In this document: positions 34,133-64,000 of the stretch, in pieces
Layout: the number at the start of each line of letters is the position of its first letter
Position numbering within the stretch: the first letter of the stretch is position 1
Assembly: GCA_015058945.1 (NCBI GenBank)
Contig: SVBF01000012.1
Location: 1 to 64,000, forward strand
From: Erysipelotrichaceae bacterium
Lineage (GTDB): Bacteria > Bacillota_I > Bacilli_A > RFN20 > CAG-826
Length of the DNA: 64,000 nt
Direction: 5' to 3'
Translations under genes and position numbers: made by a program
The notes under the pieces: model-generated
Seen by the model: only the letters and a program-made list of their open reading frames with translations
Database searches by the model: none
What the model was told of the DNA's origin: nothing

Positions 34133-34150
34133 TTGTTGCGCTTTTGTGGC
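34133..34150 (+). promoter_or_regulatory. SARP-type direct-repeat box, collagen-like lipoprotein
   Basis: TTGTTGC-GCTT-TTGTGGC, two heptamers 4 bp apart. A TAGGCT -10 candidate begins 11 bp later and the start codon is 41 bp from the box. Confidence 0.65.
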
Positions 34151-34191: not shown

Positions 34192-37100
34192 ATGAAAAAG
34201 ATCAAAACCGCAGTCATCGCATTACTAAGCACCCTGGCTTTAGCCGCCTGTGGAACAGGTGAGCAAGGCCCCCAAGGCATCCCTGGTCCCGCCGGCTCAC
34301 AAGGCCCCGTCGGCCCGCAAGGCGAACAAGGAACCCAAGGGACTCAAGGCACCCAAGGCGAACAGGGTCCTCAAGGCACTCAAGGAACCCAAGGCACCCA
34401 GGGTGAACAAGGCCCACAAGGCGAACAAGGATCCCAGGGCCCGCAGGGAGAACCTGGCCCCCAAGGCCCGCAAGGCGAACAAGGTTCACAAGGTCCTCAG
34501 GGTGAAAAGGGTGACAAGGGAGATAAGGGCGACAAAGGCGACAAAGGTGACCAGGGTGAACCCGGTGCCGATGGCGCTGATGGCGAAGACGGCGCTCAAG
34601 GTGAAAAAGGCGATAAAGGCGATACCGGTCCTCAAGGCCCCCAAGGCGAAACTGGGCCTCAGGGCGAACAAGGCGCCGACGGCACTTCGGTGCTTACGGG
34701 CACAGGTGCACCTTCGAATGATCTCGGAAATGTAGGGGATACCTATATCAATACCGCTAACTGGGATTTTTACGTCAAAGGAGAAAACGGTTGGGGCGAC
34801 CCCGTCGGCAACATCAAAGGCGCCCAAGGAGAACAGGGTGAAACTGGTCCTCAGGGCCCGCAAGGCGAACAAGGCCAACAGGGCGCTCAAGGCTCGCAGG
34901 GCGAGCAAGGATCCCAAGGCGCCCAAGGTGAAAAGGGCGACAAGGGTGATGCCGGTGCTCAAGGTCCCCAAGGCGCTCAAGGCGAAACCGGACCGCAAGG
35001 CCCCCAAGGCGAAAAAGGTGCCGACGGTACTTCGATGCGCACCGGATCCGGCGCACCATCAGACGAGCTTGGTAATGTGGGTGACTCCTACATCGATATC
35101 TCCAACTGGAATATCTATGTCAAAGGAGAAAATGGTTGGGGCGACCCCGTCGGCAACATCAAGGGTGCGGACGGCGCTCAGGGCGAAGCCGGACCTCAAG
35201 GCCCCCAAGGCGAGCAAGGATCCCAAGGCGCCCAAGGTGAAAAGGGCGAGCAAGGCGAACCGGGCAAATCTATGATCGGCTTCTTTGTTGAGACGATCTC
35301 CCAACTGGAAGCGGCCTCTAAAGTCGAGAACGCCTACATCATCATGATGGATACCATCGTGGTCGATCGAGACTTCACGTTAGATATTTCCGACAAAGAG
35401 ATCAACGGTAGGTTCCGCGTCGAAGAAGGCCACACCTTCTCTATCGTTGGCGATGGCACGTTATTCGCGGATGACACCTCGCCTTTGATCGATAACAAAG
35501 GCACCTTATCCATCGGTGAACTCGGAGAAGATGGACCAACGTTAAAGATGGTCTCAAAAGACGACTCCAAGTCACTAGGCTACAACTCGTCGTTGATCAC
35601 ATCGGGCAACGAAACAGGTTTCACGCCGAATACCTACACCGCGGAATTCAGTTTATTCTCGGGATCGCTTTTAGGCGGTAAAAACAGCGTTGAAAACAAA
35701 GCCGACAGCGAAGCGTATATCAAAGGTGGCGAGCTGAAGCATACCGCGAACACGAGCGGTACCGCGGCGCTACTTAACCTTGGCGATGCCCTTATTAGCG
35801 GTGGCGAAGTCTTAAGTTCAAACCACACCGGCCTTAAATGCGGCGATTACACGGTTGATACCGTGTCCTACGGAGGCTCGGCGGTTGTGAAAGGCGGCTT
35901 TATCAAAGGCAGCAGCGCGACGACGAACCTTTCTGCCGACGACCATTCAGCAATATCCCTACAAGGCGGAACCTATGGTTACACCGATACCGCTTATATC
36001 GGTAAATATGTGGCCGACGGTTACACCTTATCCAAAGGCGCGAACTTCGTTGAAGCCAGACATCCGACATCCGAAGACTACCTTTTGTATTACGCGAAGA
36101 GCAACGTGATAAATCACCCCGGCACCTATTCGGTCGCATACTCTGACGAGACGGAAAGAAACAATGCCGTTAACTATTATTTGAATGAGCAGCCCTTTGG
36201 CGGCGATATGCAAGGCGTGTTCTGCTGCTTGCAAAATGGCCAAACGGTCAAACTGGCCCATGGCGAAAGCAGTATCGCGATCAATGAAGCTGTGCTTAAT
36301 GGCAAATCCTTCATCATCGACTTAAACGGGCAAACGGTTGGAGATCATGAATATTCTTCCGCCCTTGCTTATTCCGCCCCGCTTAACCTTTCCGCTGCTG
36401 ACGCAACCGTAACGATCATCGGCAACGGACAAGTCCTTAATAACACCATCGAAGGCGAGAGCGAACCGGGCACCTTCATCAACGTCGCTGCGAATGTGAC
36501 GTTAAATGTCGAAGGCGGAAGCTATGCCCAAGACCCATCCACTTATGTCAACCCGTTGACGCATCATGTCGACTTCAACAATGACACCCAACTTTATGAC
36601 GTTCTTGCCGGCGGCATGGAATCGATCTCGTTCAACCAAGATTCGTACGCCCTTGTGTTGAACGGAGAAGACGTTTCTTTCACCGTCATCGACAACAGAA
36701 GCATCCTCAGAGAAGCGACGGTCACATCCGGCGATGAAAGCGTCGTCACGATCGTGGATGGTAAATTACATGCCGTCGCCCTTGGAGAAGCGACGATTAC
36801 CGCGTCGTTTGATTTCGCGGGTGAGCATTTTGAGGCCCAAGCTGGCGTTATCGTCAAAGAACCTCTTCGATCGTTAAGCATCGAAGGCGACGAAGAGCGC
36901 ACGGCATATAAAAACAACCAAATCCAATTGGTGCCCGTCCTTAGCCCGGATGAAAAATATGTCCTTGACCCCACGCTGACTTGGACATCATCCAATACCG
37001 GTTTTGCCACCGTCGATTCCGAAGGGAAAGTCACGATCAAAGGCGATAATGGCAGCGTGACCATCACTGTAACCAACGAAGCCACGGGATTATCCGACTC

Positions 37101-37464
37101 GGTCACGTTTAATGTTCCTAGACATGGAACCGTCGCCGAAGATCCGCTAACTTTTTCTGAAGCCATCGCCAAATACAATGCGAAGGATTTCAGCAACTAC
37201 TACATTAATGGCGTGGCGTCTGATGTTAATGTGTATAAATCAGGGGATCTTACTTGTGTGTCCTTAAGTTTGACACAAGGATCAACAACCTTGGCAGTAC
37301 ATATGTTTTCATTCCTTGCATACGAACATCCAGACCTAGAAGCATTGGCTTATCAAATGAAAAACGGAGACACTGTCGTTCTTTTAACCAGTGTGGCGAG
37401 ATATGGTGCAAATTACAGTCTTGATAACACGGAAGGGATAATCTCAGTCACCGAACCGGCTTAA
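34192..37464 (+). CDS. Collagen-like repeat surface lipoprotein
   Basis: 1090 residues. Signal peptide with lipobox 'ALAACGTG' (Cys near 20), then about 340 residues of Gly-X-Y repeats dominated by [12 protein letters not shown] and GEK triplets. They are interrupted by two nearly identical inserts of about 45 residues ('[20 protein letters not shown]' and '[20 protein letters not shown]', each ending '[16 protein letters not shown]'). The C-terminal two thirds are beta-rich with a BIG2-type domain near 900-985 ('[23 protein letters not shown]'). Collagen-like bacterial proteins form triple helices and mediate adhesion. It carries the SARP-type box. Confidence 0.9.
34256..35270 (+). repeat. 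Tandem Gly-X-Y repeat DNA
   Basis: Nine-base periodic DNA (GGC/GGT-CCN/GAA-CAA) coding for the collagen-like stalk, with the insert module duplicated at about 34681-34825 and 35026-35170. Prone to slippage and recombination. Confidence 0.9.
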
Positions 37465-50607: not shown

Positions 50608-50625
50608 TTGTGGCACGTTTGTGGC
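50608..50625 (+). promoter_or_regulatory. SARP-type direct-repeat box, P1 operon
   Basis: TTGTGGC-ACGT-TTGTGGC, a perfect heptamer direct repeat with 4-bp spacing. A TATCAT -10 candidate starts 10 bp after the box (50636), and the P1 start codon is 37 bp from it. Confidence 0.7.
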
Positions 50626-50662: not shown

Positions 50663-51718
50663 ATGAGACGCAGCGAAAGAAACGAACTCTACAAATGCAA
50701 CACCAAGGGTTTGATCGACCTCATGAACGACCCGAGGTATATGAATAACAAGAACAACCAGTTTGGCGCCGTGCTTGGCTACCTCGCCCGCCATGGGATG
50801 TCCAACGGAAACTCCAAAGGCGAATTCCTTGATTTGGTCTACGCCGCGAGGAACGAATTCATCGCCCAAGCCGCGAAACAACATGTCGGCGCCAAGGGCG
50901 AAGTCGCCTATGACCAACTCGGCCCCGGCGATGCCAAACTCAAGGCCTTTATCCGCGATCCGCTTCCGATTTTGCAACGCGAGATGAAGGGCTTTTCCGA
51001 ACGCAAAGAGAACTTCGCCGCCGACGAAGATCCGGACATCGTCGATTATTACCGTCGTCTCAAGACCAACGCGGACATTCTTTCCATCGAACTGGGATCC
51101 GATTTCGACCAGACGCGCAATCGTCCGGAAAACACCGAACTCGTGGATGTGATGAACCGCCTCAACAAAAAGATCCCTGAGAACGCGACCACTCCCGAAG
51201 AGGCGTTAAAGAAAGCCAACTCCGGCTTCTTCGGCACCTTATTCCGCCGCCAATCCAAGGAATTCACCGCCTTTAAAACCGCCTTTGATCAGTTCCGCGA
51301 CCCGACCAAAGTCCTCAATAGCGGAAACGTCGGCAATCTCGAAGAGAAGACCACGGCCTACCTCAAGCACCTCAACCCCGCATTCGAATACAAGAAAGGC
51401 ATGGATAAGGAAGCGTTCCTTGCCAACCTTTCCAAGGGACAGAAGGCCCGCGCCGAGTTCGCGCTTAACGTCCTCGACTCCATCGCCGAGCATAAAGAGA
51501 TGAAGCCGTACATGGAAAACGTCGATAACGCCATCAAGGGCAAACCGGTCAAAGAAATCGCCGAACCTAAGGCGGAGGTCAACGATCCGAAGATTCAAGG
51601 CCAATTCCAAAACCAAATCGCCGTCGAACTCGGCGAGGCTAAGGAGAGCAACGACATCGTCAAAGAAGAACCCGCCGAGGAAAAAGTGGCGGAAAACGGA
51701 CCGGAGATGTCCAACTAA
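50663..51718 (+). CDS. P1: uncharacterised cytosolic protein, founder of a three-member local family
   Basis: 351 residues, no signal peptide or membrane helix, mostly helical and highly charged. N-terminal part includes 'GAVLGYLARHGMSNGN', the middle 'NSGFFGTLFRRQSKEFTAFKTAFDQFRDPTK', then 'LEEKTTAYLKHLNP' and 'KARAEFALNVLDSIAEHKEM' (about 195-290), all of which align with P3 (57346) and, more weakly, with P2 (54473). The last 40 residues are a Glu-rich tail ('VKEEPAEEKVAENGPEMSN'). First gene of an operon with the C26 lipoprotein. No known family recognised. Confidence 0.75.
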   Translation: MRRSERNELYKCNTKGLIDLMNDPRYMNNKNNQFGAVLGYLARHGMSNGNSKGEFLDLVYAARNEFIAQAAKQHVGAKGEVAYDQLGPGDAKLKAFIRDPLPILQREMKGFSERKENFAADEDPDIVDYYRRLKTNADILSIELGSDFDQTRNRPENTELVDVMNRLNKKIPENATTPEEALKKANSGFFGTLFRRQSKEFTAFKTAFDQFRDPTKVLNSGNVGNLEEKTTAYLKHLNPAFEYKKGMDKEAFLANLSKGQKARAEFALNVLDSIAEHKEMKPYMENVDNAIKGKPVKEIAEPKAEVNDPKIQGQFQNQIAVELGEAKESNDIVKEEPAEEKVAENGPEMSN

Positions 51719-51725
51719 GCAAACG

Positions 51726-52688
51726 ATGAACAAAAAGATAATGAAATTCGGCAAAGTGCTCGCGCCGTTACTCGCGTTATCTTTTCTTTCTTCCTGCGTT
51801 CATCGTCCCGAGACGAAGAACGTCTATATCGCTTGGAGCGACAGGCAAAACAGTTATAGCTTTATCTCCACGTTAAAGACCGTGACCTCCATCGGCTGCA
51901 ACCCCGTCGTCTTGGACATGGTTCGGTCCAACGATTTGTCTTATGGCGAGGACGGAACGTTGATCGATGCGGTCGACGAACATCGCATCCTCTTGCCCGA
52001 ACCGGCAAGAAAGGTGAAGGCCAGCGCCTGGCGGCATTCTAACGTCAAAGACATCATGAAGGACGTGAAATACGTGATCTTCCCCGGCGGCTCGGACATT
52101 TGTCCCACACTCCGAAGAACGGAAGGGGAGTGGCATGGCATCGAAGGGGATACCGATTACGCCCCGGAACGGGACGTCTCCGACTATCTGCTGATGTCCT
52201 ATTGTCTCGACCACAGCATCCCCGTGTTCGCGATTTGCCGCGGCATGCAGATGTTATCCGTCGTCTCCGGCGCGACGATGATCGACGATATCCCAACTTA
52301 TTTCGCTTCGTTAGGAAAAGGCGACAAGGAAACTCATCGCGACGCGGAGAAAACCGTCTTCGCCGCCCATGACGTCGACGTGACCGACGACTCCTCATTG
52401 CTTTATAAGATCACCAAGCAAACCAAACTGGAGAAAGTGCCGTCTTGGCATCACCAGGGCGTTCTTTCCGTGGAAGGCACCCCATTGTCCGTTACGGCCA
52501 AGACGACCACCGACGGCGTTTCGATCATCGAAGCGGTGGAACGGAAGGACCTCCCCTTTTGCCTCGGCGTCCAATTCCACCCCGAAGTCGCGGTGCGTAA
52601 GGCGGTGGACAAAGAAGCGGACGCCGGGAATTATATGGACCAACAAACCGCCGCATCGTTCTTCCGTGCCTTGGTCGAGCCCAAATAA
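51726..52688 (+). CDS. Class-I glutamine amidotransferase-like (peptidase C26) lipoprotein
   Basis: 320 residues. Signal peptide and lipobox 'LSFLSSCVHR' (Cys near 24). The catalytic domain shows the nucleophile elbow 'PVFAICRGMQMLSV' and the partner His/Glu in 'LGVQFHPEVAV', as in gamma-glutamyl-GABA hydrolases (PuuD) and gamma-glutamyl hydrolases. PuuD enzymes are cytosolic; this one is predicted to act outside the membrane, perhaps on gamma-glutamyl bonds in peptides or folylpolyglutamates. It lies 7 bp after P1, under the same box. Confidence 0.85.
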   Translation: MNKKIMKFGKVLAPLLALSFLSSCVHRPETKNVYIAWSDRQNSYSFISTLKTVTSIGCNPVVLDMVRSNDLSYGEDGTLIDAVDEHRILLPEPARKVKASAWRHSNVKDIMKDVKYVIFPGGSDICPTLRRTEGEWHGIEGDTDYAPERDVSDYLLMSYCLDHSIPVFAICRGMQMLSVVSGATMIDDIPTYFASLGKGDKETHRDAEKTVFAAHDVDVTDDSSLLYKITKQTKLEKVPSWHHQGVLSVEGTPLSVTAKTTTDGVSIIEAVERKDLPFCLGVQFHPEVAVRKAVDKEADAGNYMDQQTAASFFRALVEPK

Positions 52689-52836
52689 TCAAAACTATTT
52701 TCATATATTTAAATACGCATAAACGCACGCGTGCATAATATCGAATTCGCGAAAACCTGCGTTTACTATGAAAATTCGCGAAAATTTAGATACTTTGTAT
52801 CTACATAAGATTTTTAAAGATTTTTGCAAAAAATGC
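52689..52836 (+). promoter_or_regulatory. AT-rich region with repeats in front of the giant RNA
   Basis: Contains AATTCGCGAAAA twice (52744-52755 and 52773-52784, 29 bp apart) around the octamer palindrome TTCGCGAA, and the inverted repeat TAGATAC-TTT-GTATCTA (52787-52803). A third ATTCGCGAAAA lies on the far side of the RNA gene at 54385-54395. Operator-like; no terminator for the preceding operon is evident. Confidence 0.55.
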
Positions 52837-52864
52837 TTGCACACTTTTTCGATGCGAGTATAGT
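52837..52864 (+). promoter_or_regulatory. Strong promoter of the giant structured RNA
   Basis: TTGCAC (52837-52842), 16-bp spacer, TATAGT (52859-52864). Predicted start near 52870. Confidence 0.8.
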
Positions 52865-52869
52865 TATGT

Positions 52870-54327
52870 GTTCCGCAGGGAACGCCAAGCCGCAAGGTAA
52901 GCGAAACTGTGGTAACCACCTTAACATAGTTAAGGTGAGGGGAATGTGTGATGCCCCTCGGGAACTTCGGTTCCTCAAAGGTCTACTGCCTCGAAAGAGA
53001 CAAAGGCTGGTCCTGGACTAACCCATGGCCCGCTAAGGAATCGCTCGCCCTTCGGTAAACCGATGAATGGAGCTGGAAAGGAAGAAAGAGGTCCTGCGAT
53101 GGATCCTCGAGGACTCCTTCCCTAAGGGCTCCCGCGCAGAACGGGAACGCCACCGCCTCTCGTCCCAGGCGGCTAGTGAAACTAGAGAGAATGGGAGATG
53201 CGGACAGCCTTGGAAAAGGAACATCCGCAAGAAGGGTTAAGCGAACTTCGTCGCGTCCCTTCCCAGGATTCGCCCCCTGGCTCGTGAACGAGAAAACGCG
53301 GCGATGCCGTCAAACCTTCCTTGCGATAGGGGGGATGCTGCGGCGAAGGGTAACCCCCTGGAGGATTCCCGCCTCCCACTGGTAAACCAGAACAAACAGG
53401 GCCGACGGTGGACTTGGTTCGTCCCAAGGCAAACCGTCCAAGGCGAAGGCGCGAGCCTCCGCACGGAACATCCCATCCTTCAGATGCGCTCTGAGAACAT
53501 GGGTCCCAAGCTAACCTACTCCCGCAAGGGCATGGCCAACTTGGTCAAGGGGCTGCGGCGAAAGCCGATGTCCCCGACGGAATTCGAGCCGTCGCGTGGT
53601 AGAACCACGGCAATTCCATCGAATGGGTCGTGAGATCCGGAGAGGGCAAATCCCTCAGACCCCGCAGAAAGGCCGCGGTAAACCCGAAAATCTCTGCTCC
53701 CTCCGCTGCTATGGCCTAGTAAGCCCTCTACGCGGTACGGTAGTTCCCCGGGCATAAGCCTGCGGAACGATGGTTGTCCCGCCATTGCGTGAAACGCTGA
53801 TCATGGGAATGTGAACGCGTCGGTCTTCTTCGGAAGGCAGGGGCGTCCAGAAACGCCTGGGAATTCATAACCAGGTGGTGCCCAAAGAGGCCCGGCGCGC
53901 GGTAAACCGCTGGAAAGGCCTCTTCCCTAGGGAGTAATTCCTAGGCGAGTGAGGAGACCTTGGTCCCCTCGGGAAGTCGTTCCACCCCTCAATCGTGAAG
54001 TTGGAACGTGGCTTGGACACTTAGGCGGACGAAGATGTAACCTAAGGTTCCGGTCGAGACCGACGGTCGTCTGTTGACGTTGCGTCGGCCTAGGAAGATA
54101 AGAGCTCTTCTCAGCGGTACACCGCAGAACCAAAAACTTGTTCCCGAATCCCTCCTGCGTTAGGGCCAGGCGGTGGTAAGGAACGAATCCCGTAAGGGAT
54201 GTGGTTGGTTGGAATCTCCCACGAGGTAAACCTCAAATACGAAATGTCCCGGCGATATTGGAGCTAGACAAGCCGTTAAACCGGAAAGCCGAGTGACACC
54301 ACGCAGCGATGCGTGGCGTTTTCTTTT
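52870..54327 (+). ncRNA. Giant (about 1.46 kb) structured non-coding RNA, class not recognised
   Basis: No ORF with a ribosome site or protein-like composition is present, yet the stretch lies between a good promoter and a good terminator. Dense local hairpins are directly visible: GTTCC-GCAG-GGAAC (52870), CACCTTAAC-ATA-GTTAAGGTG (52917-52937), GAGGGG...CCCCTC (52937-52959), GGAAC-TTCG-GTTCC (52961-52974), CTAGT-GAA-ACTAG (near 53173), CCC-GCAA-GGG (53521-53530), CGGC-GAAA-GCCG (53556-53567), CGTGG-TAGAA-CCACG (53595-53609), GAGGG-CAAAT-CCCTC (53642-53656), CTTC-TTCG-GAAG (near 53828), ATCCC-GTAA-GGGAT (near 54188). A hairpin of form GG-UAA(A)-CC recurs about seven times. It is not rRNA, tmRNA, RNase P or SRP RNA as far as I can tell. 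Size exceeds the published OLE, ROOL and GOLLD classes; it could be a divergent large relative or a new class. Confidence 0.8.
54299..54327 (+). terminator. Rho-independent terminator of the giant RNA
   Basis: CCACGCA-GCGA-TGCGTGG (7 bp, GNRA loop) followed by CGTTTTCTTTT. Confidence 0.9.
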
Positions 54328-54405
54328 ATACAGTAGGTTTTCGCAAGTCTCATCGGAGTGCTTAAAGACGATAAGCGGCAACATATTCGCGAAAAAGTTG
54401 CTTTA

Positions 54406-54423
54406 GTGTGACACATCTGTTGC
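54406..54423 (+). promoter_or_regulatory. SARP-type direct-repeat box, P2 (weaker match)
   Basis: GTGTGAC-ACAT-CTGTTGC: same 7-4-7 layout with one deviation in each heptamer. An extended -10 TGTTATTAT (TATTAT at 54440-54445) follows 16 bp later; start codon 49 bp from the box. Confidence 0.5.
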
Positions 54424-54472
54424 GTCGGATGCCTTATGTTATTATCAGTCGAACGAAAAAGGAGGCGACATT

Positions 54473-55969
54473 ATGCCAGTTTACGAGCCCTTTACCAAAG
54501 AAGAAAAAAGAGACATCATCGCGCGTCACCATTACCTCGTCGATGAGATGAACAAGACCCTCGGCGGCGTTTTGGAATACGAGGACGAAAGAATCCTGCA
54601 GAAGCTGGAAGACCCGAAGGAGGTCGCCGCCTATCGTTTGCATGAGGAAAACAAGCTGAGAAACGAGAAGCGTCAGAGAATCATGGACGACCTCGGTTTC
54701 CGATTTGGCACCCAGGGCATGGACCACAATCCTTTGAACCGCCACATCAAATATCTCATGAAGCTTGGCGACGATCCCAAGGACACGGAATATAACGAAA
54801 AGTTATACCAGGAATATCTCCGGAATCCCGAGAAAATCATTTACCGTGAGTATAAGAAGATTTTGGAGCTCAATCCGCAGCAGCTTTACGATCTAGGCAA
54901 CGACAAGCAGAAGATCGCCGAGTTCTATATGGATAACACGGGCCTATGCGAGGGCGCGTTCGTCGTGAACTCGGTCATCACCAACAGCAACGCCAAGGCG
55001 ACCAAGGCGTTACGTAACGGCCTTGCTTCGATGGCTAAGCCGATCGAATCGCTCAACGAAATCGGCCACACGCTCAAGAACAATGGCATCGATAGCTTCG
55101 CTTGCCCGACCCTCACCCAAGAGCAGACTTTGCTCGCGATGACGAACCAGACCCTATTCTTAGGTAATCCCAACCCCGTGTTGACGGAGGTCATGAACTG
55201 CAACCTCATCCCGATCGAAACCCCGCATGACTATTTCCAAAAGTTCGTCGATTATGGCATCGACATAAACCAGCCGAAGTTCTTCACCAAATACAAAGCG
55301 GTCAAAACCGATCCGGAGACGGGCAACAAAAGGGAAGTGGGCTTCCATGAACTCTTTGATGACGACGACCCCAACGTCCGCATCGAAATCCGCAGCAAGG
55401 ACGAGCAGGAGGAAATCCTCGCCGTCAATCGCGCCTACCAAGACAAATACGCGGAAAAGTTCCAAGCCCGCATCGCCACGAAGCTCAACCAGATGAACTT
55501 CGACATCAACCAGCTCGAGGAAGAGCGTAAGGGTAGTTGGGTGGAACGTAATGTTCTCCATTCCACGTCCCGCGAATGGACGGAATTCATCGGCGCCTTC
55601 AAGGACTATAACAACCCCGAGCATCCCAATTACCTCCGCAAGGACATCCTTAAGCCCAAAGCCCAGGCCTACATGAACCGTAAACACCGCCAAGGCTATG
55701 CGACGGTGGAGGACATGAAGGGCACTTCGCGTAGCCGTGGTACATTGGCTCAGGCCGTCATCGATACCTGCGATGAGTTCGAGGAGCAAAAGAACCAGAT
55801 CACCGAGGACATCGAGATCGCGATCAATACCGGGTTCAATGGCAAGGTCGGGCTTATCATCAACGCCAAAGAAGTCGACGACAACGACAACGTGGCGGAA
55901 CCGGAGGAAGAGAAATCCAACGAGATCAAAAACGAAATCGTTAAAGATCAAGGGTCGCTCGAGATGTAG
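54473..55969 (+). CDS. P2: uncharacterised cytosolic protein related to P1 and P3
   Basis: 498 residues, the longest of the three, without signal peptide or membrane helix. The stretch about 340-450 ('WVERNVLHSTSREWTEFIGAFKDYNNPEHPNYLRKDI', 'PKAQAYMN', 'LAQAVIDTCDEFEEQKNQITEDIE') corresponds to the shared C-terminal module of P1 and P3; the first 330 residues are its own. The tail is Glu/Asn/Lys-rich ('EPEEEKSNEIKNEIVKDQG'). Good ribosome site AAAAAGGAGG. It is the first gene behind the giant RNA and is followed by a terminator, so it forms its own unit. No known family recognised. Confidence 0.75.
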   Translation: MPVYEPFTKEEKRDIIARHHYLVDEMNKTLGGVLEYEDERILQKLEDPKEVAAYRLHEENKLRNEKRQRIMDDLGFRFGTQGMDHNPLNRHIKYLMKLGDDPKDTEYNEKLYQEYLRNPEKIIYREYKKILELNPQQLYDLGNDKQKIAEFYMDNTGLCEGAFVVNSVITNSNAKATKALRNGLASMAKPIESLNEIGHTLKNNGIDSFACPTLTQEQTLLAMTNQTLFLGNPNPVLTEVMNCNLIPIETPHDYFQKFVDYGIDINQPKFFTKYKAVKTDPETGNKREVGFHELFDDDDPNVRIEIRSKDEQEEILAVNRAYQDKYAEKFQARIATKLNQMNFDINQLEEERKGSWVERNVLHSTSREWTEFIGAFKDYNNPEHPNYLRKDILKPKAQAYMNRKHRQGYATVEDMKGTSRSRGTLAQAVIDTCDEFEEQKNQITEDIEIAINTGFNGKVGLIINAKEVDDNDNVAEPEEEKSNEIKNEIVKDQGSLEM

Positions 55970-55985
55970 CAAATACCAAAGATAG

Positions 55986-56018
55986 AGGCGGGCGCGTCCA
56001 AAGGCGCATCCGCCTTTT
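55986..56018 (+). terminator. Terminator of P2
   Basis: AGGCGGGCGC / GCGCATCCGCCT stem with a two-base bulge, then TTTTCT. Confidence 0.85.
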
Positions 56019-56147
56019 CTCATGCCATCGTTTTTGGAAAATAAGCGGGATTTGCGGGACATTTTGCATCCCAAAACCCGCAAAAAGCGCTTTTTTGTGG
56101 CTCGCAATAAGATTGCGAATCGCGCGATGAAAGGGGTTTCTTGTCGA

Positions 56148-56176
56148 TTTACTCGCCATGATGGGTAAATTATACG
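56148..56176 (+). promoter_or_regulatory. Promoter of the GGDEF gene, leaderless start
   Basis: TTTACT, 17-bp spacer, TATACG ending 7 bases before the ATG; no Shine-Dalgarno. Confidence 0.5.
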
Positions 56177-56183
56177 TAGTATC

Positions 56184-57269
56184 ATGAATCCCGTTCTTGA
56201 GTACTTTATCCAAAACTGGGCGCTGGTCTTAATCCTCCTCGCCTTCGCGATCATGTTGTGGGTCACGATCTTCCTCGACCGGAAAACCGTGAGGCGCATG
56301 TACATCCTGATCGTTTTCCTTTTCCTGCTTTCCATCTGCGTCTACACCGAGTTCCGCCTCGCGGAGACCAAGCATTATCCGGAATTGCGTTTGGCGATGA
56401 TGGCCATACGTTATAGCGCCACTCCAGTTATCGTCGCCTTCATCATCTTCACGCTGGTGAAGCGGGCTCGTTGGTATGTGTTTTTGCCAGTAGTCGCCCT
56501 CACGGTGCTTAACGTGATCTCCATTTGGACCGGTATCGTCTTCGGGCTCGACGCAAATGGCGAACTCGTTCGCGGCGCCCTCGGCTATTTCCCTTATATC
56601 GCCGTGGGCATTTATAGTTTCTTCCTCGTCTTCATCCTTATCCGCCAAAGCAACAAGCAGGCCGTGGAAATCGTCCCCATCGCCTTCTTGGCCTTCACCT
56701 TCGCCTCGGGCTTGGTCTTCCCCTTCGTGATGGGAAAGGAATACTCCAAGATCTTCTGCTCGACCATCGCCGTCGGCCTATTCGTCTATTACGTCTTCTC
56801 GATCCTGCAGCTCACCACGAAGGATGCCTTGACCGGTTTGCTGAACCGTCAAGCTTACTACTCCTTCGTCCGCAAGAACTCCAAGGACATCACTGCGATC
56901 GTCTCCATTGACATGAACGGCCTCAAGACCATCAACGACAACCAGGGCCACCTCGCCGGGGATGAGGCGCTTACGACTTTGGCCTTATGCTTCACCAAAG
57001 CCACGAAGAACAAACAGTACGTCTACCGCATTGGCGGCGACGAATTCGTCATCGTTTGCAAAAAGACCAGCAAAGCGGATTTGAAGCTCATGATCAAATC
57101 CATCAAAGAAAACGTCGCCGAGACGGAATACTCCTGCTCCATCGGCTATTCGTTCGCCTTTAATGGCGAAAAGACGCCGGAAGAAATGGCCAAGGAATCG
57201 GACGCGATGATGTACGCCCATAAGGCCAAGTTCTATTCCGAAAGCAGCAATAATCGCCGCCTTCAGTAA
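56184..57269 (+). CDS. Membrane diguanylate cyclase (GGDEF protein)
   Basis: 361 residues. Seven hydrophobic segments in residues 8-205 form a membrane sensor, then a GGDEF domain (about 212-361) with 'KDALTGLLNRQAYY', 'AIVSIDMNGLKTINDNQGHLAGDEAL' and an intact active site 'RIGGDEFVIV' near 284. The RxxD inhibitory site that normally precedes GGDEF by five residues is absent ('KNKQYVY'), so product inhibition through that site is not expected. It should make c-di-GMP; no EAL, HD-GYP or PilZ protein is in the window. It stands between P2 and P3. Confidence 0.92.
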   Translation: MNPVLEYFIQNWALVLILLAFAIMLWVTIFLDRKTVRRMYILIVFLFLLSICVYTEFRLAETKHYPELRLAMMAIRYSATPVIVAFIIFTLVKRARWYVFLPVVALTVLNVISIWTGIVFGLDANGELVRGALGYFPYIAVGIYSFFLVFILIRQSNKQAVEIVPIAFLAFTFASGLVFPFVMGKEYSKIFCSTIAVGLFVYYVFSILQLTTKDALTGLLNRQAYYSFVRKNSKDITAIVSIDMNGLKTINDNQGHLAGDEALTTLALCFTKATKNKQYVYRIGGDEFVIVCKKTSKADLKLMIKSIKENVAETEYSCSIGYSFAFNGEKTPEEMAKESDAMMYAHKAKFYSESSNNRRLQ

Positions 57270-57280
57270 AAAGTTTCTTC

Positions 57281-57298
57281 TTGTGACAGTTTTGTTGC
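57281..57298 (+). promoter_or_regulatory. SARP-type direct-repeat box, P3-regulator operon
   Basis: TTGTGAC-AGTT-TTGTTGC. A GATATTTT -10 region starts 14-16 bp later (57313-57320); start codon 47 bp from the box. Because the SARP-type regulator is in the operon, this would be an autoregulatory site. Confidence 0.65.
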
Positions 57299-57345
57299 AT
57301 GCGTCCGCGTAAGATATTTTCGTAACCTCAGAAAAAGGCAAAACC

Positions 57346-58488
57346 ATGCCGAAGCTCACAAAAGAAGAACTTCAACGCGTCCGCTATGTCTCCATGGCGG
57401 ATTTCGCGCGCCGCTTCGACCAGATTCAGGACTTTGACGACAAGATGTCCTTCGCGACGCGTTACTTGCTTTGCCATGGCATGAAGGGCGCCGAGAACGA
57501 CTATAGCTTTCCCGAGGCGCTCCATATCGCCCGCACGAAGATCGCCGACGCCTCTGCCAGGATGAAGGAGCAGTTCTTCGCGCAATCGGACGAGGATTTG
57601 ACCAAACGCCCCCATATTGTGAACCCTTGGCTTAAGGACGAAAGGGCCGACCTTGCGGCCGAAGCCTTCATGGGCAATCCGACGGGCTATGTCCAAGGCG
57701 CCGCCAAGGAGCTCGCCCAAGAAATGGGCAGCAGCTCCGGTTTTAACATTGACCTAAAGGCGAACTGCGAACGCATCTCCCATTTGCCCGAGGAGCAGAC
57801 GAACCGCGCCGTTTTCGCCCTCGACGCCACGCCGACGGCCTTCGACGTCAAGATGCGCTTGGAAACCAAGCTCGGCGGTAGGGCGGAACTAGAAAGCTTA
57901 TACCAAACCGCGAAGCCAGGTCTTTTCTCCAGAATCCTCGGCGCCTCTTCCCCCGCCTCGCACAAACTCGACGCCGCCTATAAGGCGTTCCAAAACCCGA
58001 GGGACCGTGCCTTTGGGGACATGAACGCCATGGAGAAGGCATCCAATGATTATTTGGGCTATAAAATCCCTACTTGGAAACCTGGGCAAAAGATGCCAAA
58101 CGACGTCATGGGTGTCCTTAATCCCGCCGAGAAGGCCAGGGCCAAGCTCTCCGTCTACATGCTCGAATCCATCGAAGAGCAACGCGCGATGGAAGACGAC
58201 TTCCGCACGATGGTGAAAGCCTGTAGCGCGAAGAGCCTTTCCTATGATGACGTTATCGCCTCTAGGGTGACCCTGCGCGAAACGTCACAGGAAGAGCCGC
58301 ATGTCGAAGACGCCGTCAAAGAAGAAACCAGAATCAAATCGCCTCGCGGGCTCGATCAGGCCTCCTTCCAATCCTTTTTGGAATATGACGCCCAAGACGA
58401 GACTTTGATGGAGAGTAGGGGAGAGGCAACCGAAGAGGAGCCGTCCATCGATGAACCTGCGATTGACGAAGCCGCGGTGGTGCAATAA
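57346..58488 (+). CDS. P3: uncharacterised cytosolic protein, paralogue of P1
   Basis: 380 residues, no signal peptide or membrane helix. Shares with P1 'YLLCHGMKGAEN' (P1 'YLARHGMSNGN'), 'KPGLFSRILGASSPASHKLDAAYKAFQNPRD' (P1 'NSGFFGTLF...FKTAFDQFRDPTK') and 'NPAEKARAKLSVYMLESIEEQRAME' (P1 'SKGQKARAEFALNVLDSIAEHKEM'). Glu/Asp-rich C-terminus ('EEEPSIDEPAIDEAAVVQ'). It is 5 bp upstream of the SARP-type response regulator. No known family recognised. Confidence 0.76.
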   Translation: MPKLTKEELQRVRYVSMADFARRFDQIQDFDDKMSFATRYLLCHGMKGAENDYSFPEALHIARTKIADASARMKEQFFAQSDEDLTKRPHIVNPWLKDERADLAAEAFMGNPTGYVQGAAKELAQEMGSSSGFNIDLKANCERISHLPEEQTNRAVFALDATPTAFDVKMRLETKLGGRAELESLYQTAKPGLFSRILGASSPASHKLDAAYKAFQNPRDRAFGDMNAMEKASNDYLGYKIPTWKPGQKMPNDVMGVLNPAEKARAKLSVYMLESIEEQRAMEDDFRTMVKACSAKSLSYDDVIASRVTLRETSQEEPHVEDAVKEETRIKSPRGLDQASFQSFLEYDAQDETLMESRGEATEEEPSIDEPAIDEAAVVQ

Positions 58489-58493
58489 GGTGA

Positions 58494-59255
58494 ATGGCAA
58501 TGACCATACTTCTCGTCGACGATGAAAAACTACAGCTGCACCGCTTGCAAGACGCGGTGGCCAAAGTACTCCCCGAGAGTGAGGTTTTGTCATTTGGCAA
58601 CCCCCTAGAGGCGTTAAAGGAAACCGAGGACCTCAAGATTGACCTCGCCTTCCTCGACATTGAGATGCCGGGGATGAACGGAATCCAAGTCGCGCGGAAA
58701 CTGAAACTGCGTGACCCGCGGACCCGCATCGTCTTCGTCACCGCCTATGACCATTACGCGATGGAGGCGTTCCGCGTCCACGCCTCCGGCTATATCACCA
58801 AACCCGTCAGTGAGGGAAAGATCCGCGAGGAGATGGAACAGGTCACGCCGTCGTTCCTTCCCTCCTCAAAAAAGCTGCAGGTGAAGTGCTTTGGGAACTT
58901 TGAGGTTTTCCATGACGGCGTCCCCCTGAAATTCAAGCGCAGCAAATCGAAGGAACTTTTCGCCTACCTCATCGACCGTGAGGGGTCGGCCGCGACGGCG
59001 AGCGAACTTAACGCGATCCTTTGGAACGAGGACCATCCTTCCTACCTCCGCAACCTCGTCAGCGACATCCAACAGACGCTTAAGGCGGTCGGCTGCGCGG
59101 ATGTGTTCGTCAAGCGTCACAACGAATGCTACATCGACGTCTCCAAGATCGATTGCGACGCCTACGAATTCAAGAAAAACAACCCGGACGCGATACGGAT
59201 GTACCGGGGACAATACATGTTCCAATACTCGTGGGCGATGTTCGTGGATGAGTAG
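58494..59255 (+). CDS. Response regulator with SARP-type DNA-binding domain
   Basis: 253 residues. Receiver domain 1-120 with phospho-acceptor Asp 55 ('LAFLDIEMPGMNG'), conserved Thr/Lys ('FVTAYDHY', 'ITKPVSE'). Residues 128-225 are a winged helix of the SARP/OmpR-like type ('VKCFGNFEVFHDGVPLKFKRSKSKELFAYLIDREG', 'LRNLVSDIQQTLKAVG'), and the last 35 residues ('MYRGQYMFQYSWAMF') look like the beginning of a bacterial transcriptional activation (BTAD) domain, as in receiver-SARP proteins common in Bacillota. Cytosolic activator. Co-transcribed with P3. Its likely sites are the heptamer repeats described here; that assignment is inference. Confidence 0.9.
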   Translation: MAMTILLVDDEKLQLHRLQDAVAKVLPESEVLSFGNPLEALKETEDLKIDLAFLDIEMPGMNGIQVARKLKLRDPRTRIVFVTAYDHYAMEAFRVHASGYITKPVSEGKIREEMEQVTPSFLPSSKKLQVKCFGNFEVFHDGVPLKFKRSKSKELFAYLIDREGSAATASELNAILWNEDHPSYLRNLVSDIQQTLKAVGCADVFVKRHNECYIDVSKIDCDAYEFKKNNPDAIRMYRGQYMFQYSWAMFVDE

Positions 59256-59468: not shown

Positions 59469-59486
59469 TTGTTGCACATTTGTGGC
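59469..59486 (+). promoter_or_regulatory. SARP-type direct-repeat box, lipoprotein-VirD4 operon
   Basis: TTGTTGC-ACAT-TTGTGGC. A TATAGA -10 begins 9 bp later (59496), nearly the 8-bp distance known for SARP sites. The first heptamer overlaps a TTGCAC -35 with an 18-bp spacer. Confidence 0.7.
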
Positions 59487-59556: not shown

Positions 59557-61149
59557 ATGAAGAACAAGACAGCCATCACAATCCTCGCCGCCTTAGCCAT
59601 CTCCTCGATGCCTTTTATGGCTGCGTGCAGCGGTTCGACTACCATCGTCGGGATTCATATGACCAACCCTGAGACGATGACCGTCTGCTATGGCAATTTC
59701 TCCTATGAGGGAATCGGCGTCACCGTCGATTTCCGCGACGGAGGTTCGACCGAGATCCCCCTTACCGAGGACATGGTCCCGGAAGTGGAACGGCTGAAGT
59801 TTTTCAAAATCGGCGAGCAGAACATCGAGATCGTCTATCGCGGCAAGTTCACGACCACCATGCCCGTGAACGTCACGTTAAATCAATTTAAGGATTCGTA
59901 CGCGCTAGTCGGGTATGAGTGCGTGTATGACGGCTCGCCCCATGCCGTCGGATTAAACCAAGAACTACCCGAAGGCGCGGTCATCACTTATCCCTATGGC
60001 AACATCTTCACCAACGCGGGCGTCTATGAAGTCGTCGGCGTCATGAGCAAGAACGGCTATGAGTCGAAGACCCTCACGACGACGCTCACCATCCTACCCG
60101 CCGAGCGTGACGCCTCAGGCATCGTCTTTGAGGACACCACGGTGGTCTATAACGGCGAAATGCGCTCCATCGAGGCGACCAACGTCCCCGAGGGCGTGGA
60201 AGTCACTTATGACGCCTACGACTATGAACAAGCCATTCGCATCAACAAAGTCGTCAACGCCGGCAAGTATCGCATCGTCGCCCATTTCAACGACACCAGC
60301 ACCAACTACACAAAGATTCCCGATAAGGAAGCCGTCCTAACCATCGAGAAAGCCGATTATGACGTCTCGGACATCAAGCTTCCCGACGCGATCAAGGAAT
60401 ACGATGGCCAGGATTACGTCGCCCAGATCACCAACAAAGGTCGTCTCCCCACCGGCGTAAGCGTCAATTACACCTATTACGATGAGCAGGGGAACAAGGT
60501 CAACAGCAACGCCAAAGTCGGCAATTACACCATCGTCGCCTCCTTCGTGGGCGGCGACCTCGCCAACTACAACCCCATCGAACCGCTCACGGCGACGCTT
60601 TCCGTCTCAAAGCGCGTCATCAAGATCAAAGACAAAGTCACCTTTGAGGGCAAAACGGTCAACTTCGACGAGAACGTGACCCATTCTTTGGCCATCGCCG
60701 GGACGCTCCCCGACACCGTGAAAGTCACCTATGAAAACAACGACCAGGTCTATGCCGGCGAATACGAGGTGAAGGCTAAGTTCTCCGCCGTCAGCGAAAA
60801 CGAGAAGGTGGACCTCGAGGAGCTGACCGCCTATTTGATCATCAACCGCGTGCGCCGCTCGGTCCCGATGTATAACGAGACCACCAAGGCCTACGACCGT
60901 CCTTTCGCCGCAAGCGACATCAAGATCAAAGACGGCGTCGTCACCATCGAAGGCTATCAGACCGACATCTTCAAGCTGACTTCGGTCGTCTTCTCCGACT
61001 TGCTGACCAACGAAACCGTCGCCCCCGAAAACCTCGTCAGCGGCACCACCTACAAATACATCGTCACCTTTGAATATATCGACGAGTCGGTTGGGAGCAG
61101 TGTGATTTTGTCCCAGGAATCGGACAACATCACCTATGTGGCGGAGTGA
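59557..61149 (+). CDS. MBG-domain surface lipoprotein
   Basis: 530 residues. Signal peptide with lipobox 'FMAACSGS' (Cys near 23), an N-terminal Ig-like domain, then four to five repeats of the MBG type ('YDGSPHAVGLNQELPEGAVITY...NAGVYEVVGV', 'YNGEMRSIEATNVPEGVEVTY...NAGKYRIVA', 'YDGQDYVAQITNKGRLPTGVSV...KVGNYTIVA'), modules typical of extended adhesins. First gene of an operon with a VirD4-like ATPase (4 bp gap) and a Calx-beta protein. There is no good ribosome site at the ATG. Confidence 0.85.
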   Translation: MKNKTAITILAALAISSMPFMAACSGSTTIVGIHMTNPETMTVCYGNFSYEGIGVTVDFRDGGSTEIPLTEDMVPEVERLKFFKIGEQNIEIVYRGKFTTTMPVNVTLNQFKDSYALVGYECVYDGSPHAVGLNQELPEGAVITYPYGNIFTNAGVYEVVGVMSKNGYESKTLTTTLTILPAERDASGIVFEDTTVVYNGEMRSIEATNVPEGVEVTYDAYDYEQAIRINKVVNAGKYRIVAHFNDTSTNYTKIPDKEAVLTIEKADYDVSDIKLPDAIKEYDGQDYVAQITNKGRLPTGVSVNYTYYDEQGNKVNSNAKVGNYTIVASFVGGDLANYNPIEPLTATLSVSKRVIKIKDKVTFEGKTVNFDENVTHSLAIAGTLPDTVKVTYENNDQVYAGEYEVKAKFSAVSENEKVDLEELTAYLIINRVRRSVPMYNETTKAYDRPFAASDIKIKDGVVTIEGYQTDIFKLTSVVFSDLLTNETVAPENLVSGTTYKYIVTFEYIDESVGSSVILSQESDNITYVAE

Positions 61150-61153
61150 GAAG

Positions 61154-63526
61154 ATGAAGAAGCGCTACATCGCATACATCACTTACGGCGTCTCCTTAGC
61201 CTTAGCCGCCGCCTTAATGTTGGTGCTCTTCTTTTTGGGCGTCTTTCATCATTACACCGACACGCTCGACGTCGGCAACATGATTGCCTTCCTGATCTTC
61301 TTCTTCGTGACTTTCTCCCTCGTCGCGACGGTCCTTTTCTCCGCCCGTTTCATTAGCGGCGTCGTGCAGGAAACCCTCTTCATCGTGGCCTCGCTCCTCC
61401 TCATCAGCGAGATTTTGTCCTTTCTCCTGTTCGCGCTCATCGACTGCGGTTTCGAATTCGCGCTCATCGACTGGCTCGGCGCCCTAGGACGCATGCCCGT
61501 CGGCTGGCAATACTATTTGACGTTGCTCTTCATCTTCGTCGGCCTTTTCGCGATTTACGCCGCCTTCATCAACAAGAACTTCATCGCCACTATCCTCGGC
61601 AAAGGTACGGGCGAGCTCAAACGCGTCAAAGGTTCCAACCTCGAGAATTCGCGCTGGTTGACCGACCGCGAGAAGAAAACCCTCTTCAAGTTCTATTCCT
61701 ATAGCCAACTCGGCGAGGTGACCAAAGACGGCATCCCCGTCCACGCCCAACTCGACCGCAAGGGCAAAGACATGGAGGTCGGCTTCAATGCGCCGTGCCA
61801 CTCCATCGTCATCGGTTCCACCGGCTCTGGTAAGACAACGACCTTCGTCTCGCCGATGATCCAGCTCCTCGGCGCCACCAAGGCTGGGTCCTCGATGGTC
61901 ATCACCGACCCCAAAGGCGAGCTTTTCCAGCTCCATTCCAAATACCTGAGGGAGCGGGGATACGACGTGAAGGTCATCGACTTACGCGACACCTATTCCT
62001 CCTACCGCTGGAACCCCCTCGACGGCATTTGGGACAACTTCGAACTCTATCGCAACGCCCATAAAATGGCCTTCAAGCGCGACGACGACATCATGCAGGC
62101 GGGCCTTAAGGTCGACAAAGAGGACGAGAACCTCCCCGTCGGCACGGAATGGTACGAATTCCAGGGCAAGGCCTACACCGATTACAAGCGCCTCATCAAC
62201 GCGGTCAAGATCTTCAAGAAGCGCACCTATGACGAAATCTATGAGGACCTCAACGACTTGGTCACCGTCTTGATCCCGGTCGAGAACGAGAAGGATCCCC
62301 TATGGGAAAAGGGCGCCCGCTCCATCACCTTGGCGGTCCTTTTGGCCATGCTCGAGGACGCCGAGGAAGAAGGCAGCACGATGTCCAAAGCCAAGTTCAA
62401 CTTCTTCAACTTGGCCAAGATCCTCCAAAACTCCAACGACGACTACAAGCAACTCCGCGAATACTTCAAGGGCAGGAGTTCCCTCTCTCGCGCCTATTCC
62501 TTATCCAAACAGGTCTGCGACGCCGCCCAGTCGACCCGCGCCTCCTACATGTCCATCGTCTACGACAAACTCACTTTGTTCAACGACGCCGGCATCTGCG
62601 CCCTCACGAGTTCCTCCGACTTCACCGCCAAGTCGCTTTCGGACCATCCGACCGCCCTCTTCCTCAAGATCCCCGACGAGAAAGACACGCGCCATAACCT
62701 CGCGGCCATCTTCATCTTGAACATCTACAAGACCTTGATTAAGGTCGCCTCCGCGACGCCGGACCTCACCTTGCCGCGCAACGTCTACTTCATCATGGAC
62801 GAGTTCGGCAACATGCCCAAGATCAGCAAGTTCGACAAATTCATCACCGTCGGCCGTTCGCGCAAGATCTGGTTCACCATGATCGTTCAGTCCTACGCTC
62901 AGCTCAATAATGTCTACGGCGACACCGTCGCGGACATCATCAAGGGCAACTGCGGCATCAAGATGTTCATCGGTTCCAACGACATGTCGACCTGCAAAGA
63001 ATACAGCGAGCTTTGCGGCAACATCACCATCGCGAGCACCTCGACCTCCGGCAGCGCCCATAGCGAGACCAACTTCTCGACCTCCTACCAGGTCCGCCCG
63101 TTGATCTACCCGTCCGAGCTGCAGCGTCTCAACCATCCCGGCGACATCGGCCATGGCATCGTCGTCACGTTCGGCAACTATCCGCTTAAGACATACTTCA
63201 CCCCCTCGTTCAAGGTACCTCTTTACGTCACGGGCGAGATGGATCAGTCCGACATCGCCGAGCGCGGCTTCAACGAGCGCGCGGTCTTCTATGACATCCG
63301 CGAACGCAATAGGCGCCTCGAGAAGAAAACCGCCGAGGCGGCGGCCGAAAAGGAAAAGCAAACCGAGAAGAAGCAGAAGCAGAGCGAGCTCTCCTCCCTC
63401 ACCCAGGCGGAGATCCTCTCCCTGTTCATGGAATACCAGAAGAGCAACCCCGGTCTCACCCTCAAGGACTTCATCAGCATGATCGAAGACGGCAAGATCG
63501 AGCTCGGAAAGGACCCGAAACAATGA
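61154..63526 (+). CDS. VirD4/TraG-type coupling ATPase
   Basis: 790 residues. Four N-terminal membrane helices (about 5-150), then a TraG/VirD4 motor: Walker A 'GSTGSGKTTTF' near 221, 'VITDPKGELF', 'RWNPLDG', Walker B 'YFIMDEFGNMPKISKFDK' near 548, 'MIVQSYAQLNNVYG', 'GNCGIKMFIGSNDMSTCKEYSELCG'. A charged coiled-coil-like tail follows (about 720-770). Type IV coupling proteins feed DNA or protein substrates to type IV secretion channels. No relaxase, VirB4 or VirB6 gene is in the window; the operon continues past the right edge. Both neighbours are surface proteins. Confidence 0.92.
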   Translation: MKKRYIAYITYGVSLALAAALMLVLFFLGVFHHYTDTLDVGNMIAFLIFFFVTFSLVATVLFSARFISGVVQETLFIVASLLLISEILSFLLFALIDCGFEFALIDWLGALGRMPVGWQYYLTLLFIFVGLFAIYAAFINKNFIATILGKGTGELKRVKGSNLENSRWLTDREKKTLFKFYSYSQLGEVTKDGIPVHAQLDRKGKDMEVGFNAPCHSIVIGSTGSGKTTTFVSPMIQLLGATKAGSSMVITDPKGELFQLHSKYLRERGYDVKVIDLRDTYSSYRWNPLDGIWDNFELYRNAHKMAFKRDDDIMQAGLKVDKEDENLPVGTEWYEFQGKAYTDYKRLINAVKIFKKRTYDEIYEDLNDLVTVLIPVENEKDPLWEKGARSITLAVLLAMLEDAEEEGSTMSKAKFNFFNLAKILQNSNDDYKQLREYFKGRSSLSRAYSLSKQVCDAAQSTRASYMSIVYDKLTLFNDAGICALTSSSDFTAKSLSDHPTALFLKIPDEKDTRHNLAAIFILNIYKTLIKVASATPDLTLPRNVYFIMDEFGNMPKISKFDKFITVGRSRKIWFTMIVQSYAQLNNVYGDTVADIIKGNCGIKMFIGSNDMSTCKEYSELCGNITIASTSTSGSAHSETNFSTSYQVRPLIYPSELQRLNHPGDIGHGIVVTFGNYPLKTYFTPSFKVPLYVTGEMDQSDIAERGFNERAVFYDIRERNRRLEKKTAEAAAEKEKQTEKKQKQSELSSLTQAEILSLFMEYQKSNPGLTLKDFISMIEDGKIELGKDPKQ

Positions 63527-64000
63527 GAGCGAAGTGGAGAAGACGCGGCTTGACGTTCCTCACGGCCCTGATGGCTGGCTTTATGATGAGCCAGGGGCTC
63601 CCGGAACTCGCCTCCGACCTCAGTGAGATCGTCGTGTTCGCCGATAGCGGCACCAACGTCGTCCGTTTTGGTTCGACTCAGGTCGAGTGCAACGATTCCA
63701 ACCTCGTCTACGTCGACCTTTTGGCCACCGGCACCCCGGGCAACACCGTCACCGCCACCTATCGCACCAGCAGCGGCACCGCCATCGAGAACGTCGACTA
63801 TGCGGGCGTCTATAACACCATCTCGCTTAGACTCGGCACCGACGGCAAAGCCAAATACACCATTTCCATCAAGGGCCTTAACGACGCCTCCGGCCGCGAG
63901 AAACTCCGCGTCTATGACTCCGAAGGCGTCTATGGCCGTTATTTCAACCTGCACCTCCTCGCGGCGGAAAATGCCTCCATCGGCGACGAGAAGCAGTGCA
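63523..64000 (+). CDS. Exported Calx-beta-domain protein (5' part)
   Basis: 159 codons visible; truncated by the window end. Basic N-terminus (MRAKWRRRG) and a hydrophobic helix (about 10-26) form a signal sequence without lipobox. The following region has Calx-beta features: 'VDLLATGTPGNTVTATYRTSSGTAIENVDYAG' and 'KYTISIKGLND'. Such domains bind Ca2+ and occur in adhesion proteins. It overlaps the VirD4 gene by 4 bp (ATGA), so it is translationally coupled. Confidence 0.8.
   Translation, partial: MRAKWRRRGLTFLTALMAGFMMSQGLPELASDLSEIVVFADSGTNVVRFGSTQVECNDSNLVYVDLLATGTPGNTVTATYRTSSGTAIENVDYAGVYNTISLRLGTDGKAKYTISIKGLNDASGREKLRVYDSEGVYGRYFNLHLLAAENASIGDEKQC

Follow-up and report, generated by a model that had tools for sequence, protein, structure and literature searches.

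A new protein family with a common C-terminal module, and its possible export by a type IV secretion system in Bacilli

The effectors of the X-T4SS, a type IV secretion system (T4SS) of Xanthomonas and Stenotrophomonas, carry a C-terminal XVIPCD of ~120 residues behind variable N-terminal parts; their genes lie scattered over the genome, some of them within the T4SS locus, and small proteins consist of little beyond this signal (PMC6536674). In Gram-positive bacteria, protein secretion (SspA-1) has been attributed to the 89K T4SS of Streptococcus suis (PMC4897608, PMC12857230), and a 2025 review treats effector-dedicated Gram-positive T4SSs as a long-standing question for which it names one case (PMC12857230). 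Herein we describe three genes, P1, P2 and P3, that precede a T4SS operon in a stretch of 64,000 nucleotides from an Erysipelotrichaceae bacterium (GCA_015058945.1, contig SVBF01000012.1, positions 1 to 64,000 of the forward strand; hereafter the window). We propose, with moderate confidence, that their products are cytosolic proteins which a T4SS of this monoderm (Bacilli) lineage exports as its substrates. The proposal draws on the homology of the three proteins, their C-terminal module and acidic tail, a common promoter, genome-level co-occurrence with the T4SS, operon linkage in several genomes, and a T4SS locus that is free of relaxase.

The P1–P3 family and its C-terminal module

The three open reading frames (ORFs) that the original prediction had proposed as paralogues are all present, with the motifs that it quoted (YLARHGM in P1 and YLLCHGM in P3, as well as ‘LF..S...F..AF..F.+P’, ‘LE+....YL’ and ‘KARA......DSI.E’). 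The ORFs and their parts are as follows.

50663..51718, + strand: P1, family member; ORF of 351 aa, related to P2 and P3 by profile homology
51185..51523, + strand: C-terminal module of P1 (module profile E 1.5e-33)
51596..51715, + strand: acidic tail of P1 with the motif ‘QFQNQIAVEL’ (sequence and tail statistics)
54473..55969, + strand: P2, longer family member; ORF of 498 aa, with orthologues at 54-60% in six species
55493..55810, + strand: C-terminal module of P2 (module profile E 3.0e-35; hhalign E 1.2e-15)
57346..58488, + strand: P3, family member; ORF of 380 aa, with same-genus relatives and an AlphaFold2 model
57877..58212, + strand: C-terminal module of P3 (module profile E 1.3e-35)
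58357..58485, + strand: acidic, mostly disordered tail of P3 from ‘SFQSFLEYD’ (pLDDT <50 at residues 350-380; tail statistics)

Pairwise BLASTP barely detects the homology (P1–P3 E 0.007, P1–P2 E 0.07), with no significant match between P2 and P3. Using relatives drawn from 60 other genomes, iterated profiles seeded from each of the three proteins retrieved the remaining two. Since such profiles may have drifted, we placed the weight on a profile–profile comparison, in which hhalign matched a P1/P3-type alignment to a P2-type alignment, the two having no member in common (probability 98.6%, E 1.2e-15; 109 columns aligned within the C-terminal module). By these comparisons P1, P2 and P3 are homologous, beyond chance once relatives are included, which bears out the predicted paralogy.

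The module spans ~110 residues, with a consensus around ‘KPG.FSR.FGTxS....NLDE.Y.AFNNPNH.LYGN...L.KAA..YL.H’, and is followed by an acidic, Asp/Glu-rich tail that in P3 is predicted to be mostly disordered. The region N-terminal to it ranges from ~170 to 650 residues and total length from 340 to 930 aa; P2, with 498 aa against 351 in P1 and 380 in P3, is as foreseen the same module in a longer protein. Over the last 40 residues the median net charge is -10.5 in the family, -10.5 in a set of kinase-like proteins described below and -1 in 252 other genes, and FQxx[LIV] occurs within the last 80 residues of 28 of 56 family members as compared to 3 of the 252. One 81-aa protein (L215:576-821, - strand) consists of little beyond an acidic FQ-type tail; it has a repeat promoter of its own and sits between a P2-like gene, itself behind the T4SS gene virB4, and a TetR-like gene.

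AlphaFold2 predicts an all-helical P3 (pLDDT 83.8, pTM 0.79), and the modelled P2 module (pLDDT mostly 76-97) has the same order of helices, as compared by helix succession. P2 outside the module was modelled poorly because usable relatives are scarce, and P1 is placed in the family by its sequence. The models agree with the earlier description of the proteins as helical. The three proteins also look cytosolic, as had been suggested, with no signal peptide or membrane segment apparent when the sequences of P1–P3 were inspected by eye.

Sequence searches of Pfam, PHROGs, NCBIfam, PADLOC and the PDB returned nothing above cut-off for the family; matches to HasA, ADP-ribosyltransferase, WXG100 and HAAS fell below cut-off, involved few members and were rejected. 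Foldseek with the P3 model gave no match at E <0.1, the best being VIA (Z 5.4, 10 Å rmsd), which is uninformative for a helical protein. Judged from these searches, the family is undescribed, i.e., a new protein family with its own C-terminal module, in line with the original view of it as unrecognised.

Co-occurrence and a common promoter with a T4SS operon

The distribution of the family was assessed in 61 genomes, of which 31 are from the same genus (10 module-positive, 21 negative), including the host of the window (G000). The module profile found the module 75 times, in 10 of the 61 genomes, all of one genus. A profile search for further copies, as suggested with the original prediction, located nine module genes on four contigs of the host genome, and the maximum per genome is 11 divergent paralogues. 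The local amplification that had been postulated holds for the three copies in the window and not for the host set as a whole, which is spread over the four contigs.

VirD4 orthologues (77-80%) were found in G000, G002, G005, G011, G016 and G018; in G017 the match is a fragment of 107 residues (63%) where a contig ends. For VirB4, orthologues at 82-85% were found in G000, G002, G003, G005, G010, G011, G016 and G023. The genomes with one or both are exactly the 10 module-positive ones (VirD4 alone in G018; VirB4 alone in G003, G010 and G023), while the 21 other same-genus genomes have neither the module nor a VirD4/VirB4 orthologue at that level. The probability that the same 10 of 31 genomes coincide by chance is 2e-8, computed ignoring shared ancestry. 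More distant VirD4 relatives (<50% identity) occur in a few further genomes. G001 (76% complete) was scored family-negative: its P3-like match covers 40 residues at the end of a contig, and nothing in it matches the T4SS. Because the assemblies are fragmented, absence from a single genome is weak evidence, whereas the whole pattern is not. The two sides of the association differ in divergence, with P2 orthologues at 54-60% and the best P3 relatives at 47-48% versus 82-85% for VirB4, which suggests that the putative substrates diverge faster than the machine. The named relatives are metagenome-assembled Bacilli (e.g., Bacilli bacterium RGIG3500, UBA7278, RUG11821), and the stated sources for the genomes of four relatives are goat rumen, roe deer rumen and water deer abomasum.

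The T4SS operon, the regulatory gene in front of it and the promoter elements are located in the window as follows.

50608..50625, + strand: direct-repeat promoter element of P1 (repeat search)
54406..54423, + strand: direct-repeat promoter element of P2 (repeat search)
57281..57298, + strand: direct-repeat promoter element of P3, followed by the response regulator, with a TAAGAT -10 element at 57310 (repeat search)
58500..59255, + strand: response regulator (RR), receiver plus SARP-like DNA-binding domain, likely activator (Pfam Response_reg; PDB matches to AfsR)
59469..59486, + strand: direct-repeat promoter element of the T4SS operon (repeat search)
59557..61149, + strand: MBG-domain surface protein, first gene of the T4SS operon (Pfam; conserved position)
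61154..63526, + strand: VirD4-type coupling protein (Pfam T4SS-DNA_transf, 7.2e-55; orthologues in six other family-positive genomes)
63571..64000, + strand: start of a 2472-aa surface protein of the T4SS operon, running past the window (operon reading)

The operon order is MBG surface protein, VirD4, 2472-aa surface protein, VirB2-like pilin, lipoprotein, VirB6 and VirB4, so that the components looked for in an effector translocator (VirD4, pilin, VirB6 and VirB4) stand in one operon. This order is kept in G016, G002 (on two contigs), G023 and partly G003. The host operon runs off contig C10, on which the pilin still follows the 2472-aa protein, and the lipoprotein, VirB6 and VirB4 lie on C13; the join is deduced from the same pilin gene starting on C13. 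Directly 3' of VirB4 a P2-like gene is found in four of the six readable genomes (G000, G016, G023 and G010), and a TetR-like gene takes its place in G002 and G003.

Upstream of P1, P2, P3 and the T4SS operon lies an 11-bp direct repeat, TGTKRC-n5-TGTKRC. Allowing at most one mismatch in 12, it precedes 48 of the 55 family genes with upstream sequence, usually by 55-70 bp; of the seven exceptions, two come immediately after VirB4 and another is a fragment at the end of a contig. It precedes 23 of 296 other genes, which came from the loci fetched for the family and are therefore enriched in its neighbourhood, and 15 of these 23 are T4SS-operon, leader-peptide, tail-only or kinase-like genes. 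A TATAAT-like box starts 11 bp past the second repeat in 36 of 42 sites. Genome-wide, a loose pattern (up to three mismatches) gave 42 matches against 39 for its reversed control, so the evidence lies in the position before family genes and not in the raw count. On this positional evidence, the promoters of the family and the T4SS would form a well-defined regulon, consistent with the shared regulation that had been predicted, and the co-occurrence with a T4SS operon under the same promoter type agrees with the earlier suggestion of a dedicated system.

In the window the RR is encoded 3' of P3 and in front of the T4SS operon, and it adjoins T4SS genes in G000, G002 and G016. It has no Pfam DNA-binding match, and the three best PDB sequence matches of its C-terminal part are all AfsR (best E 0.0017). 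The operator of AfsR, a SARP, consists of two 11-bp direct repeats upstream of the -10 element (PMC10936776), and for this reason the promoter fits a SARP-type RR; the repeat-to--10 distance is 11 bp counted from the TGTKRC core, or 7-8 bp when an 11-bp unit is assumed (SARP: 8 bp). We infer that the RR binds these repeats and activates the family and the T4SS.

The same repeat stands at 34133-34150 of the window, before a gene (34192-37464) whose product, a lipoprotein of 1090 aa, contains collagen-like and Big_2 repeats. The promoter also precedes short double-glycine-leader peptides (L061:6308-6529 and L065:1879-2100, both - strand) that are weakly similar to NHLP/CTB precursors, the former near a C39-peptidase ABC exporter; since such peptides also occur in T4SS-negative genomes, they are perhaps an older part of the regulon.

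Two further genes in the window adjoin family members.

51726..52688, + strand: peptidase C26 / GATase-like lipoprotein, directly 3' of P1 (Pfam)
56184..57269, + strand: membrane GGDEF protein (Pfam; neighbour conservation)

A homologue of the lipoprotein lies 3' of a P2-like gene in G011. The GGDEF protein adjoins P2 in G005 as well, and in G010 it stands beside a P3-like gene. Two genomes have a P-loop kinase-like gene of 158 aa near their P3-like genes (L143:311-787, L144:11366-11842).

Export of the family and competing explanations

The confinement of the family to T4SS-bearing genomes, together with the same promoter type, suggests that its members are probably exported or injected into other cells. 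In the mechanism that we propose, the module and the acidic tail would form the signal by which the VirD4 coupling protein (61154) recognises its substrates, a role analogous to that of the Xanthomonas XVIPCD with no sequence relation found, and the SARP-like RR would switch on substrates and machine together via the 11-bp repeats, which stand 11 bp before the -10 element.

Further candidates come from two kinase-like proteins of 757-758 aa encoded on C9 of the host, with relatives in six other genomes, all T4SS-positive; all 7 genomes with such genes are among the ten that have the family. Their resemblance to PI3/PI4 kinases and Fam20C is weak, the matches falling below cut-off. Their tails are acidic like those of the family, and their C-terminal part scored 39.3 against the module in a profile–profile comparison (best of 60 column shuffles: 20.3). 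These features are suggestive of the kinase-like proteins belonging to the same substrate set. A Rep_trans protein and a phage integrase, forming a small mobile element (L062:2919-5359), lie near one of the kinase-like genes on C9. We tentatively extend the export reading to a dedicated effector-translocating T4SS derived from a conjugation ancestor by loss of the relaxase, which could inject module proteins and PI3/4-kinase-like proteins into eukaryotic cells, rumen protozoa being obvious candidates. This extended reading is possible and far from probable; the ruminant habitat and the kinase similarity are the sole basis for the idea of a protozoan partner.

Several observations weigh against export. 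No catalytic fold was recognised for P1–P3 in the fold and Pfam searches. The host VirB4 is split by a frame shift (L064:4665-4680, on C13 of G000), in the host assembly only; in relatives it is a single frame of 884-885 aa. The Rep_trans element on host C9 may encode a MobT relaxase, so DNA transfer is possible. The genomes share ancestry, which makes the co-occurrence less independent than the chance figure implies. As for the kinase-like proteins, a plain HMM search with the module gave non-significant values (E 0.025-0.5, reversed decoys 0.035), and the repeat is canonical in front of one of the two host genes (C9:163762-166029), that of the other (C9:144983-147253) having one mismatch.

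P1–P3 might instead stay in the cytosol and assist the T4SS as accessory proteins (adaptors, chaperones or assembly regulators), co-regulated because they serve it. P2-like genes inside the operon in several genomes would suit this role, as would the lack of an enzymatic fold, but it sits poorly with as many as 11 divergent paralogues in one genome, spread over many loci, with their fast divergence relative to the machine, with one module joined to N-terminal parts of very different length and with acidic tails common to the kinase-like proteins, and we consider it unlikely.

A special case of the substrate reading, in which the T4SS delivers interbacterial toxins with immunity partners, would account for the general architecture shared with X-T4SS effectors and for RiPP-like leader peptides under the same promoter. 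It appears quite improbable, as no toxin domain was found in the family members scanned and no recurring partner gene lies 3' of family genes (in only 17 of 48 cases is the neighbour on the same strand and within 150 bp, and such neighbours differ in kind).

Slightly more doubtful still is a conjugative T4SS with the family as mobile-element cargo or transfer helpers. VirB4 and VirB6 do resemble mycoplasma components of integrative and conjugative elements (ICEs), and the distantly homologous T4SSs of G043 and G045 have a MobL relaxase beside VirD4. However, no relaxase was found in the T4SS operon of G000, G002, G016 or G023; Relaxase PF03432 was absent from all 31 genomes searched, which cover only part of the genus, and MobL from every same-genus genome, including the ten T4SS-positive ones. 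The family genes are scattered among unrelated genes, and there was no match for P3 in 72,556 plasmids or for P2 in phage records or viral contigs.

Lastly, the original prediction had tied the family to a giant RNA, which lies between P1 and P2 (window 52850-54330) and has no Rfam match. This RNA is present in 19 of the 31 same-genus genomes. Each of the 10 family-bearing genomes is among them (G011 with short pieces only), an association above chance in a simple count (0.002). A ribonucleoprotein in which the family partners this RNA is nevertheless highly improbable, and we rejected it as the principal reading, because neither the distribution nor the copy number of the RNA tracks the family: the RNA is also found in 9 of the 21 family-negative genomes, and two of its three full-length host copies (C7:30731-32212 and C16:10002-11477, 71% identity) are on contigs where no module gene was found.

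If the export reading is true, a whole system is at hand: a genome offers as many as eleven candidate substrates, their signal module can be recognised, the promoter marks the members, and same-genus species without the system are there for comparison. This gives a direct route to list and test candidates. Even without secretion, the analysis adds a new protein family and a well-defined putative regulon.

Comparison with described systems

As in the X-T4SS effectors, a module of ~110 residues is common to otherwise different proteins, here of a family of its own, and the genes are dispersed with some in the T4SS locus. The small proteins with little beyond the signal have a counterpart in the 81-aa acidic-tail protein beside the P2-like gene behind VirB4. 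The tails here are acidic, whereas the XVIPCD region is glutamine-rich; no immunity partners were seen here, and the host is monoderm. No Pfam family exceeded cut-off in 42 members searched for a sequence relation to XVIPCD, the presence of an XVIPCD model in Pfam being unchecked.

On the regulatory side, the likeness to AfsR lies in direct repeats spaced by 11 bp before the -10 element and in the C-terminal match of the RR. Unlike AfsR, the RR has a receiver domain in front, and its SARP membership is tentative (E 0.0017).

The machine is related to mycoplasma ICE modules (Mbov_0396/Mbov_0397 families; VirB4 E 5.4e-111, VirB6 E 9.5e-31). It differs from them in a VirB4 below the equivalog cut-off (also truncated in this assembly), in a locus without relaxase and in an operon that also encodes the 2472-aa surface protein, the MBG protein and, in several genomes, a P2-like protein. 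In Streptococcus suis 89K, an island-borne system delivers one subtilisin-like protease to the medium, whereas here the candidate substrates form a chromosomally scattered multigene family with a common C-terminal module and promoter.

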